Source: a virus | Strand: one strand, 5' to 3' | Length of the DNA: 44,800 nucleotides | IMG/VR virus record: IMGVR_UViG_3300010430_000111 | Span: 1 to 44,800 of that record | Shown here: positions 38,724-42,007 of the stretch, piece by piece | Numbering within the stretch: position 1 is the stretch's first letter | Layout of the letters: each line of letters begins with the position of its first letter | The notes under the pieces: generated by a model | Database searches by the model: none | Told to the model about the DNA's origin: nothing | Seen by the model: only the letters and a program-made list of their open reading frames with translations | Program-made: the position numbers and the translations under genes

Positions 38724-38813
38724 ATGGATATTTTCAAATCCTGCATGGATATCTTGATGAAAGGGCGGAAGAACTTAAAAAATGTTGCTAAAAGTGGGGT
38801 TTATAGTGAATAA
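38724..38813 (+). CDS. Small leader peptide before the PAPS-reductase-like gene (29 aa)
   Basis: ATG 38724 has an ideal ATAGGAGA site. The peptide starts MDIFKSCMDILMKGRKNLKN and is helical. Its stop overlaps the start region of the next gene, so it may couple translation of the cassette. Confidence 0.4.
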   Translation: MDIFKSCMDILMKGRKNLKNVAKSGVYSE

Positions 38814-40122
38814 GTTGCCAGTAAAACGTGTTTATAACGATCAGAAGAACGTTTATGAAGCAGCCATAGAGCGTTTTGACTTCATGTTTAAGAATTTCCC
38901 CAGGATTTATTTATCTTTTTCAGGGGGCAAAGACTCAGGCGCAATGCTGAACTTGATCGTTGATTACATGAGAGACCGGGGTATCACAAAAAAAATCGGC
39001 TTGATGATTCTAGACAACGAAGCAAACTATGAGCTTTCGCTTGAGTTTATGCACAGGATTATCGAAAAAAACCTTGACCTGCTTGATGTGTATTGGTGCT
39101 GCTTGCCGATTACATTGCCGTGTACTGTTAGCTCGTATGCTGTGGAATGGCAGTGCTGGGGTGAGAGGGACAAACAGCGATGGATTAAACCAATTCCTGA
39201 TGAAAGCTATATCGTAAATTTCGAGAATCATAAATTTGATTTCTTTGAAGAAGACATGCCGTATGACAAGTTTTGGGATAATTTTGGAGAGTGGTATTCA
39301 CAGGGAGAAAAATGCGCCTGCATAATCGGAATTAGAACTGATGAGAGTTTGAATCGGTTTAGAGCGATCATGAACGCAAGAAAGGAAACGCTTAAAGGCG
39401 AGATGTGGACAAAAAGAAATTCAGAGCATGTTTACAATGTTTATCCGCTTTATGACTGGCGTACAAAAGACATATGGACGGCAAATGCAAAGTTTGAATG
39501 GGATTATAACAAATTGTATGACATATTTTATAAGGCAGGTGTTCCTGTTGGTTCTATGCGGGTAGCTTCTCCATTTATGAGCGAGTCTAAATCTAGTTTA
39601 GGTTTATATCGTGTTATTGATCCGCATGTATGGGCTAAATTATGTGCCAGGGTCCAGGGTGCTAATTTTATTGCCACTTATGGAAAGCAGTTGAACTATA
39701 AAACCTTCACATTGCCGCCGGGCCATACATGGAAGTCGTTTGTTAAGTTTCTTTTAGATACCTTGCCTAAGGAGGTTGCTGAAAATTTTAGGTCGCGCTT
39801 CATCCAATCTTTTAAGGTGTGGGGCAGGTTGGGGCGAGGCCTACCAGACAAGATAATAAGTGAGCTTGAGCAGCATGGGATATCGCATTATAAAAACGGG
39901 TTTACTTCACACGGGAGAAAGGATTTAACCAGGGTTGTCATCAAAAGATTTCCAGATCATGTTGATATGCTGAGCTGTGATAACAGTATGGTGGCTTCTT
40001 GGAAGCGGTTTGCGATAACTATCTTGAAAAATGATCATACGTGTAAGTATATGGGGCTCGCGCCAACAATTGGACAGGCCAAACGTCAGAGACAAATTAT
40101 GGAGAAATATAAAACGATATGA
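38806..40122 (+). CDS. PAPS-reductase/DUF3440-like protein (IbrA-like)
   Basis: GTG 38806 is preferred (GGGG at -6, and the N-terminus [20 protein letters not shown] fits the family); ATG 38782 adds 8 residues. [12 protein letters not shown] (residues ~32-43) is the ATP-pyrophosphatase loop. The body continues with [12 protein letters not shown] and [13 protein letters not shown], and a C-terminal part [13 protein letters not shown] is DUF3440-like. Relatives include IbrA, which acts with the ParB-like IbrB. A related gene pair is encoded here, four genes downstream. Substrate unknown. Confidence 0.82.
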
Positions 40123-40436
40123 AAATTCTATCTATTGGTTGCATATATAAAATAACTTATCCAAACGGTAAGATTTATATTGGCCAAGATAGGACTGATG
40201 ACATTAATTATTTTGGTAGCGCAGATAGTTTCACTATAGCGGCTGACTTTACAGAAACGGAAAAGAGAGACTTCATAGTAAGAAAGGAAATACTTGAAAA
40301 AATTAGTCGCATAACAATTCATGATTTAAATAAACTCGAGAATAAATACATAAGAGACTTTGAATCAAATAATCCAGATATTGGCTATAACAGAACAAAT
40401 CAGAAAAGACGTAGGTGTATTACCTTATTAACGTAA
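40119..40436 (+). CDS. GIY-YIG endonuclease-like protein (105 aa)
   Basis: The ATG overlaps the previous stop. Residues ~7-21 ([18 protein letters not shown]) carry the GIY-(x)n-YIG motif. A C-terminal [14 protein letters not shown] segment fits the conserved glutamate helix, and GYN follows. Short for a homing endonuclease with a DNA-binding tail. It could be a mobile insert within the cassette or a working part of it. Confidence 0.72.
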
Positions 40437-40453
40437 CGAAAGGAGACGGGGAG

Positions 40454-40852
40454 ATGAAGATAATTACGCTTGAGGATATTAAGGAAACAGAAAGGCAGGT
40501 GCATTGCCCTTCTGGAGGGTTTATTAGTTACAGATACTTGCTCCGAGATGATGGTATGGGGTTTTCAATGAGTATGACGGTAATACCGAAAGGAGAGTTT
40601 CAACGCTGGCATTATAAGAATCATTTGGAGGCATGTTTCTGTGTATCCGGGGCTGGGATTATTGTAGACAATGGTACAGGCGCTGAATTTGAAATCAAAC
40701 CTACAACTGTTTATGTGCTTGATGGGTATGAAGACCACTCGTTTAAAGCAATTGAGGATACCGCTCTGATTTGTATTTTTAACCCTCCATTGATTGGCGC
40801 AGAAGTTCACAGTGATGACGGTTCTTATCCTTTGGAGGCTTGTAATGAATGA
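40454..40852 (+). CDS. Ectoine-synthase (EctC)-like cupin
   Basis: ATG 40454 follows AGGAGA. The 132-residue frame matches EctC along its length: DDGMGFSMSMTVIPKG, HYKNHLEACFCVSGAG, TTVYVLDGYEDHSF, and FNPPLIGAEVHSDDGSYPL. The iron ligands of EctC (Glu, Tyr and His) are at Glu59, Tyr87 and His95, with the family spacing kept. EctC closes the ectoine ring from N-acetyl-diaminobutyrate; no EctA/EctB is encoded here. The substrate may be different. It overlaps the ParB-like gene. Confidence 0.78.
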   Translation: MKIITLEDIKETERQVHCPSGGFISYRYLLRDDGMGFSMSMTVIPKGEFQRWHYKNHLEACFCVSGAGIIVDNGTGAEFEIKPTTVYVLDGYEDHSFKAIEDTALICIFNPPLIGAEVHSDDGSYPLEACNE

Positions 40853-41393
40853 CTATAAATCCCCTGTTTATAATGTTTTGGCTGTACCGATTGAGAAGAT
40901 AACGGCAAATGACTATAACCCTAATGCGGTTGCTCCTCCTGAGATGGCGCTGCTTGAAATATCTATTTGGGAAGACGGATATACACAGCCAGTTGTTGCC
41001 TGCTATGACGAAGAAAATGATATGTATGTTGTCGTTGATGGGTTTCATAGGTACTTAACAATAAGAAATAGCAAGCGTATTTATGACAGGGAGAAAGGGT
41101 TGCTCCCGATAGTGCTTATTGATAAAGCGATAGGTGACAGAATGGCGTCTACTATTCGCCATAACAGGGCAAGAGGAACTCATAATGTAGAGTTAATGAG
41201 TACGATTGTTTCTGAGTTGGTTGAGATGGGTAAAGGGGATCATTGGATATGTAAGCATATTGGCATGAGTGTTGATGAGCTTCTTAGGCTGAAGCAGATA
41301 ACAGGGGTTGCAGCCTTGTTTGCCAACAGGGATTTTTCTGATAGTTGGGTTGCTGATGAAATATTGGAAGATGAGTTAGATGAGGCCGTCTGA
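40845..41393 (+). CDS. ParB-like protein (IbrB-like)
   Basis: 182 residues from ATG 40845, with GGAGG at -8. The ParB/Srx pattern is YNPNAVAPPEMALLEISIWEDGYTQPVV, then VVDGFHRYLTIRNS with the GxHR motif. A C-terminal part reads HWICKHIGMSVDELLRLKQ, as in ParB HTH regions. IbrB in Escherichia coli works with IbrA; the partner gene lies upstream in this cassette. It probably binds DNA or a nucleotide. No partitioning partner is present. Confidence 0.78.
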   Translation: MNDYKSPVYNVLAVPIEKITANDYNPNAVAPPEMALLEISIWEDGYTQPVVACYDEENDMYVVVDGFHRYLTIRNSKRIYDREKGLLPIVLIDKAIGDRMASTIRHNRARGTHNVELMSTIVSELVEMGKGDHWICKHIGMSVDELLRLKQITGVAALFANRDFSDSWVADEILEDELDEAV

Positions 41394-41802
41394 TATAAAG
41401 CGCGTGTATCGGCCGTATTATGACTGGGAGGAAATTAATCATAATATGTGGGGGTGTGTCCAAGATCGGAAGCTATGGGTTAGGAGGGCCGTTAAATTCA
41501 CATCGGATCATAAGAAATATGGCAGATTTATGATGCGCGTTATAAATGAATGGACAGTTAGTTGTGAGAATGCTTTGACTGATACAACAATCAATCGAAA
41601 GGCATGGGTTGGACATGCGGCTGTAGCTTTGGCTATCGGGTGTCCTGAGGATATTGTAAGGGAAGCATGGGGGATGTTGACGGATGAGCAGCGGCTACTG
41701 GCGAATAAAGAGGCAGAACGGGCTATCAGATTGTGGGAATACAACTACTGTTGCAAGGATTCAAACTTATGTGAGGACTTGGACGGAGAGATGTTACTTT
41801 GA
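41380..41802 (+). CDS. Conserved protein of the IbrAB-type cassette (140 aa)
   Basis: ATG 41380 overlaps the ParB-like gene by 14 bases. The pattern RVYRPYYDWEEINHNMWG, then VGHAAVALAIGCPEDIVREAW and LTDEQRLLANKEAERAI, resembles unnamed phage proteins found after ParB genes. It is helical, with no catalytic motif. It is likely an accessory of the cassette. Confidence 0.65.
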   Translation: MRPSDIKRVYRPYYDWEEINHNMWGCVQDRKLWVRRAVKFTSDHKKYGRFMMRVINEWTVSCENALTDTTINRKAWVGHAAVALAIGCPEDIVREAWGMLTDEQRLLANKEAERAIRLWEYNYCCKDSNLCEDLDGEMLL

Positions 41803-42007
41803 AGGCATACCAGATGAGGTGAGTAATAGTCTTATGAAGTCAGAAAGGGTGCCGTCTTACAAGGCAATCGCCATTGCAATATTAAGTAATGACTCATCCA
41901 TGCGATCTTTGGGTTTTAGTGGGCCAGTATCATCATGGTTTTATGTGCTCAAATCAATTAGAAAGCCAAGAAGTAACCAAGGGGATTTGTTCGATGGATC
42001 TATTTGA
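41771..42007 (+). CDS. Small DUF3440-C-terminal-like protein (78 aa)
   Basis: GTG 41771 is preferred, with AAGGA upstream. The middle VPSYKAIAIAILSNDSSMRSLGF resembles [23 protein letters not shown] at the C-terminus of the PAPS-reductase-like protein in this cassette. It looks like a stand-alone copy of that helical domain. It overlaps the genes on both sides. Confidence 0.55.
   Translation: MRTWTERCYFEGIPDEVSNSLMKSERVPSYKAIAIAILSNDSSMRSLGFSGPVSSWFYVLKSIRKPRSNQGDLFDGSI

Follow-up and report, generated by a model that had tools for sequence, protein, structure and literature searches.

A recurrent phage gene cassette in which IbrA/IbrB-like proteins are joined by an EctC-type cupin lacking Trp-21

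The window, that is, the whole stretch of DNA analysed here, comprises positions 1 to 44,800 of IMG/VR virus record IMGVR_UViG_3300010430_000111 (44,800 bases) and includes phage head, tail and recombination genes. Seven plus-strand open reading frames (ORFs), nearly all overlapping and the rest closely spaced, occupy positions 38,724–42,007 (Table 1) and include a cassette of five genes, which encode an IbrA-like PP-loop protein, a cupin of the ectoine synthase (EctC) type, an IbrB-like protein and two accessory proteins, D140 and D3440C. A preliminary description, made from the sequence alone, had named IbrA, GIY-YIG, EctC-like, IbrB-like and two accessory genes at this locus, and all of these are present on the plus strand.

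Table 1. Features of the cassette region in the window.
Feature	Position	Strand	Basis
29-codon ORF	38724-38813	+	Overlaps IbrA start; sequence and translation
IbrA-like PP-loop ATP pyrophosphatase with DUF3440 domain	38806-40122	+	PF11922 E=1.6e-55, PF01507 1.9e-11
Short GIY-YIG-like protein	40119-40436	+	phrog_314 7.7e-7
EctC-type cupin without Trp-21	40454-40852	+	PF06339 5.8e-43; NCBIfam PRK13290 above cut-off
IbrB-like ParB/Srx-fold protein with probable C-terminal helix-turn-helix	40845-41393	+	phrog_2159 2.6e-75; Pfam ParB_N 0.0037
D140, conserved 140-amino-acid all-helical protein	41380-41802	+	Conservation in cassettes; no family match
D3440C, small protein like the C-terminal part of DUF3440	41684-42007	+	PF11922 positions 118-174, 1.2e-5

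Recurrence was assessed among close relatives of the window proteins, and cassette members were called by profile scans. Scans of IMG/VR gave 56 relatives for EctC, 263 for IbrB and 233 for IbrA, the best 80 being used for the last two. The five-gene set IbrA, EctC, IbrB, D140 and D3440C was found in about 110 distinct virus loci. Loci retrieved by IbrA alone (best 80 of 233) contained EctC in 79/80, IbrB in 79/80, D140 in 78/80 and D3440C in 76/80 cases; those retrieved by IbrB alone (best 80 of 263) all contained EctC, and 55 of the 56 retrieved by EctC alone had IbrA or IbrB. After removal of duplicates, 124 loci were obtained, with the order IbrA-EctC-IbrB-D140-D3440C in 48, the same order with EctC and IbrB in one frame in 29, and rotated or permuted orders in about 20. 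The co-occurrence of EctC-like with IbrA/IbrB-like genes in other genomes, on which the preliminary description had made its cassette depend, is thus borne out, mostly with a fixed order, and it far exceeds chance association. Cultured phage records contain IbrB-like genes in 219 cases and an EctC-like gene in five, and this rarity makes EctC the mark of a single branch within the IbrA/IbrB family. Four of the five are phages carrying the cassette, and the fifth (MT835761) was rejected as a cassette as it resembles a bacterial ectBC fragment. The EctC scan of bacterial genome contigs yielded three loci only, of which one is the cassette, on a contig of 6.7 kb. The cassette, which we read as a mobile phage module, is found across many unrelated phages.

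Cassette genes are closely coupled. The IbrA-EctC gap has a median of -4 and is at most 30 nucleotides in 96/103 loci; in 36 of the 103 loci where the two are adjacent, EctC and IbrB are read in a single frame; IbrB overlaps D140 in 93/99; and a long out-of-frame overlap of D140 with D3440C is kept in 101/104. Because of these overlaps and the shared EctC/IbrB frame, the cassette proteins probably act together, and the earlier view of IbrA, EctC and IbrB as one coupled unit holds.

The cupin of the window scores 146.6 bits with PF06339 (cut-off 27) and 143.8 bits with PRK13290 (cut-off 128), and a profile of the cassette EctC-type proteins matches PDB 5bxx at 5.7e-32. Residues of 111 cassette proteins were compared with the EctC structures of P. 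lautus, using the residue roles given for that enzyme (PMC6344544). The iron ligands E57 (111/111), Y84 (111/111) and H92 (110/111) are kept, as are the substrate and catalytic residues S23, R25, T40 and Y52, each in 111/111. Trp-21 is reported to be completely conserved in 437 bona fide EctC proteins and conserved in 145 orphan EctC proteins (PMC6344544). It is present in 0/111 cassette proteins, which have F (59), G (47) or other residues (5) at this position and no Trp in the segment preceding it. Conservation of the iron site and of S23, R25, T40 and Y52, with a substrate pocket changed by the constant absence of Trp-21, suggests that the cassette enzyme carries out the same kind of reaction, probably on a different substrate. 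Position 38 is also variable (T in 52, H in 41), and the N38 change was considered as a second diagnostic trait and dropped, since bona fide EctC also has His there. In a tree, 43 cassette proteins split from 11 bacterial EctC proteins, a small sample, with branch support of 100/99. Absence of Trp-21 extends beyond phages, since three bacterial EctC proteins (L129, L130, and L206) lack it as well; they are encoded in other biosynthetic gene clusters, with AMP-ligase, acyl-CoA dehydrogenase-like, ketosynthase and transporter genes. Assignment of the basal Mycobacterium abscessus orphan EctC group to the cassette family is unsupported, as Trp-21 is reported to be conserved in orphans.

Some sister cassettes encode additional enzymes. 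In two of them (L177 and L009) a PhyH dioxygenase gene lies between IbrA and EctC. The two proteins match the ectoine hydroxylase family TIGR02408 at E=5.8e-85 and 7.8e-51, below its equivalog cut-off, and ectoine hydroxylase (EctD) structures at 8.9e-77 and 9.5e-44, and are about 34% identical to one another. That a homologue of ectoine hydroxylase adjoins the cupin speaks for formation of an ectoine-type ring by the latter, beyond the mere possession of a cupin fold. Directly downstream of the EctD-like gene in L009, a single frame of 498 amino acids (6001-7497) joins EctC, an O-methyltransferase and IbrB. The middle domain of about 195 amino acids matches the O-methyltransferase of PDB 3ssm, which we take to be MycE, at 4.7e-30 and demethylmacrocin O-methyltransferase at 1.1e-17; the contig also encodes a GH108 endolysin and a YqaJ recombinase. 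The small-molecule or nucleic-acid chemistry proposed in the preliminary description gains support in its direction from EctD and the O-methyltransferase. A 1-Cys-type peroxiredoxin takes the place of EctC in L142 (3868-4617), and one 64% related to it follows a degenerate EctC in L135 (5519-6181); sulfiredoxin, which has the ParB fold, is a known partner of peroxiredoxins. More distant phage PP-loop/ParB cassettes, which lack EctC, come with genes annotated as methyltransferase, glycosyltransferase or acetyltransferase, and several lie next to terminase genes. Phages of Mycobacterium, Microbacterium, Arthrobacter and Bacillus (L196, L197, L199, L200, and L201) carry PP-loop genes adjacent to genes for a methyltransferase, glycosyltransferase, acetyltransferase or terminase, and most of these PP-loop genes also have a ParB-like neighbour. 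In Fusobacterium phage phiFN37 (L190; 2710-4498, 7457-8492), IbrA/IbrB are found with a nearby second ParB-like gene adjoining a queuine tRNA-ribosyltransferase-like gene.

The two core proteins form an IbrA/IbrB pair in the sense that a DUF3440 PP-loop protein adjoins a ParB-like protein, and phage records name their relatives IbrA and IbrB. The PP-loop SGGKDS is intact in the window IbrA and in 111 of 115 relatives, and the C-terminal ECGxH of phosphoadenosine phosphosulfate (PAPS) reductase (CysH) is absent from all 115. In a structural model, the IbrA N-domain has fold matches to PAPS reductase, FAD synthase, CysD, TtuA and TilS; the DUF3440 part, modelled partly with low confidence, has none. 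Cysteines 97, 98, 105, 116 and 279 of IbrA vary hardly at all in cassettes with EctC, are for the most part absent from six phage IbrA proteins of loci without EctC, and may hold a metal site. For IbrB, the motifs DG[FY]HR and HNRARG occur in 118/118 relatives, and its C-terminal segment is a probable helix-turn-helix (HTH), judged from its sequence and a weak match. The preliminary description had considered a ParB-like CTPase/nuclease-type fold; the canonical ParB CTP motifs GERR and ENxQR are found in 0/118 IbrB relatives, and nothing in the present analysis points to nuclease activity of IbrB. The AlphaFold2 model of D140 (pLDDT 92.9) is helical and has no fold match in the PDB.

The GIY-YIG gene was counted in the preliminary description as a member of the cassette, and it has been dropped as a core gene, since it occurs in 3 distinct cassettes only. 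It is an occasional passenger, found sporadically and at two positions: its relatives are in Mycobacterium phages Gaia and Nebkiss at another position and in L146 at the same one. Considered as a possible GIY-YIG homing endonuclease, the protein has the domain alone, with no further domain, and no Pfam match. At the upstream end of the region, the stop of the 29-codon ORF overlaps the likely GTG start of IbrA (38806), and the ORF possibly encodes a leader peptide for translational coupling of IbrA; the IbrA frame is open from an ATG at 38782, and homologues agree better with the GTG. The G+C content of the cassette block is 0.37-0.43 vs 0.46-0.49 in both flanks, as would fit an exchanged module. 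The neighbours of the cassette are replication and recombination genes, and the region has no match in E. coli genomes. Elsewhere in the window, amid structural genes (13934-18169), a gene run resembles by eye glycosyltransferases and an FkbM-type methyltransferase.

Among cultured phages, Gaia and Nebkiss (gp103-gp107) and Pseudoalteromonas phage XCL1123 have the same genes as the window. The Gaia proteins are 67% (IbrA), 74% (IbrB) and 46% (EctC) identical to those of the window, with counterparts of GIY-YIG, D140 and D3440C; Gaia differs in having EctC and IbrB as one 299-amino-acid protein and the GIY-YIG gene after IbrB. XCL1123 has IbrA, EctC, IbrB, D140 and D3440C. The records of all three phages give domain names and assign no further function; the GenBank label "ectoine synthase/ParB multidomain protein" stands beside PAPS reductase in Gaia and XCL1123. 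Single pieces are therefore already annotated, and the labels on Gaia and XCL1123 predate the claim of an undescribed arrangement, which stands for the open-access literature, where no description of the IbrA/EctC/IbrB combination was found. Ectoine, cupin, PAPS and IbrB are all absent from the main text of a 2025 survey of the ParB fold (PMC12704722), and a survey of M. abscessus prophages notes one prophage with a PAPS-reductase-like gene, likened to DndC, and a cysteine-dioxygenase-like gene (PMC8092301). IbrA/IbrB of E. coli prophages and YbdN/YbdM of K-12 are likewise pairs of a PP-loop/DUF3440 and a ParB-like gene, but in the single E. coli phage examined the pair has no EctC, D140 or D3440C annotated next to it. 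Ectoine synthase and the orphan EctC-type proteins share family, iron ligands and most substrate residues with the cassette proteins, which differ by lacking Trp-21, forming their own branch and having no ectAB. A PP-loop or base-modifying enzyme with a ParB-like nucleoside triphosphatase (NTPase) partner is also a feature of the DndC/DndB, SspD and DpdA/DpdB DNA-modification systems, and DNA-directed PP-loop chemistry and ParB-like partners are discussed for Dnd and Dpd systems (PMC10853773, PMC12839542). In contrast to Dnd/Ssp phosphorothioation systems, no Dnd/Ssp partner was found among the cassette genes in a PADLOC scan, and IbrA is just weakly similar to DndC (9.9e-7).

The product of the cassette is probably an uncommon chemical mark, which may be placed on phage DNA. 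We tentatively favour, with somewhat less than even confidence, a PP-loop/ParB core with swappable tailoring enzymes that makes a moiety of the ectoine type, for which hypermodification of nucleic acid would be the likeliest use. The core would consist of the PP-loop ATPase IbrA and the ParB/Srx-fold NTPase IbrB with its probable HTH. With ATP, IbrA would adenylate and thereby activate a carbonyl or carboxyl group, and it would couple a unit resembling an amino acid to a target, for which the action of TilS, TtcA and DndC on tRNA or DNA offers a precedent; ring closure of this unit to a cyclic amidine, by dehydration, would then fall to the EctC-type enzyme, which is often fused to IbrB. In some phages the product could be hydroxylated by EctD and methylated by the MycE-like enzyme. 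The target would most likely be the phage's own DNA, which would be protected from host nucleases; the ParB/HTH partner, the replication neighbourhood, the weak DndC similarity and the wider PP-loop/ParB phage cassettes point to DNA. The substrate, its attachment to nucleic acid and the protection are steps that we infer. The more specific proposal, of an ectoine-type cyclic amidine, sometimes hydroxylated and O-methylated, built on or attached to DNA by the PP-loop/ParB core and the EctC-type cyclase, is more doubtful. Several points weigh against hypermodification. The cassette loci all lack hits to EctA and EctB, while positive controls were matched, which leaves the amino-acid unit without an obvious source; the EctC cases known to us act on free amino acids; no measured DNA modification was found for any cassette-bearing phage; the tailoring case is thin, with EctD in two cassettes, the methyltransferase in one and peroxiredoxin in two; and the published role of IbrA/IbrB is regulatory.

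Other functions would account for part of these observations. The intact EctC core, the EctD genes of two cassettes and the origin of the loci in environmental virus contigs (IMG/VR) would suit an auxiliary metabolism, in which a free ectoine-like solute or protectant is made from a host precursor activated or phosphorylated by IbrA and IbrB. This we consider unlikely: EctA/EctB are missing, Trp-21 is lost throughout, the cassette also occurs in soil Mycobacterium phages, and the frequent EctC/ParB-like fusion and replication-gene setting would be odd for osmoprotection. About as unlikely is a modification of tRNA or of the nucleotide pool in the infected cell by TilS/TtcA-like chemistry, serving to control translation or to escape a defence that senses tRNA or nucleotides; the PP-loop folds near IbrA include TtuA, TilS and NcsA, and the IbrA cysteines are conserved, but ParB-like partners and the terminase- or replication-side location of related cassettes favour DNA.

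Regulation also has to be weighed, as annotations describe IbrA/IbrB as co-activating the expression of prophage genes (PMC4490671, phage annotations), ybdNM of E. coli is under CitR control (PMC9068703) and IbrB has a probable HTH. The pair would then co-activate genes of the phage or its host, in keeping with its naming in E. coli, and EctC would produce or detect a small effector; the intact PP-loop and iron site point instead to catalysis, and EctD and the O-methyltransferase are better explained by biosynthesis, so that this function is improbable and ranks behind the two above. Least probable of the four is a counter-defence complex whose effect would come from binding and not from a chemical mark, its enzymes serving as folded scaffolds, since 111 diverged proteins retain their catalytic residues; the low-GC block and the variable order and inserts are as in anti-defence islands.

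The cassette provides a defined home for one group of EctC-type enzymes without the ectoine pathway; orphan EctC proteins lacking that pathway are an acknowledged open question (PMC5924519). It also puts the IbrA/IbrB pair, for which no assigned biochemistry was found, in a setting that can be tested, and cultured carriers exist in Gaia, Nebkiss and XCL1123. If the proposed function is true, the cassette would add a new heterocycle chemistry to the DNA marks of phages.

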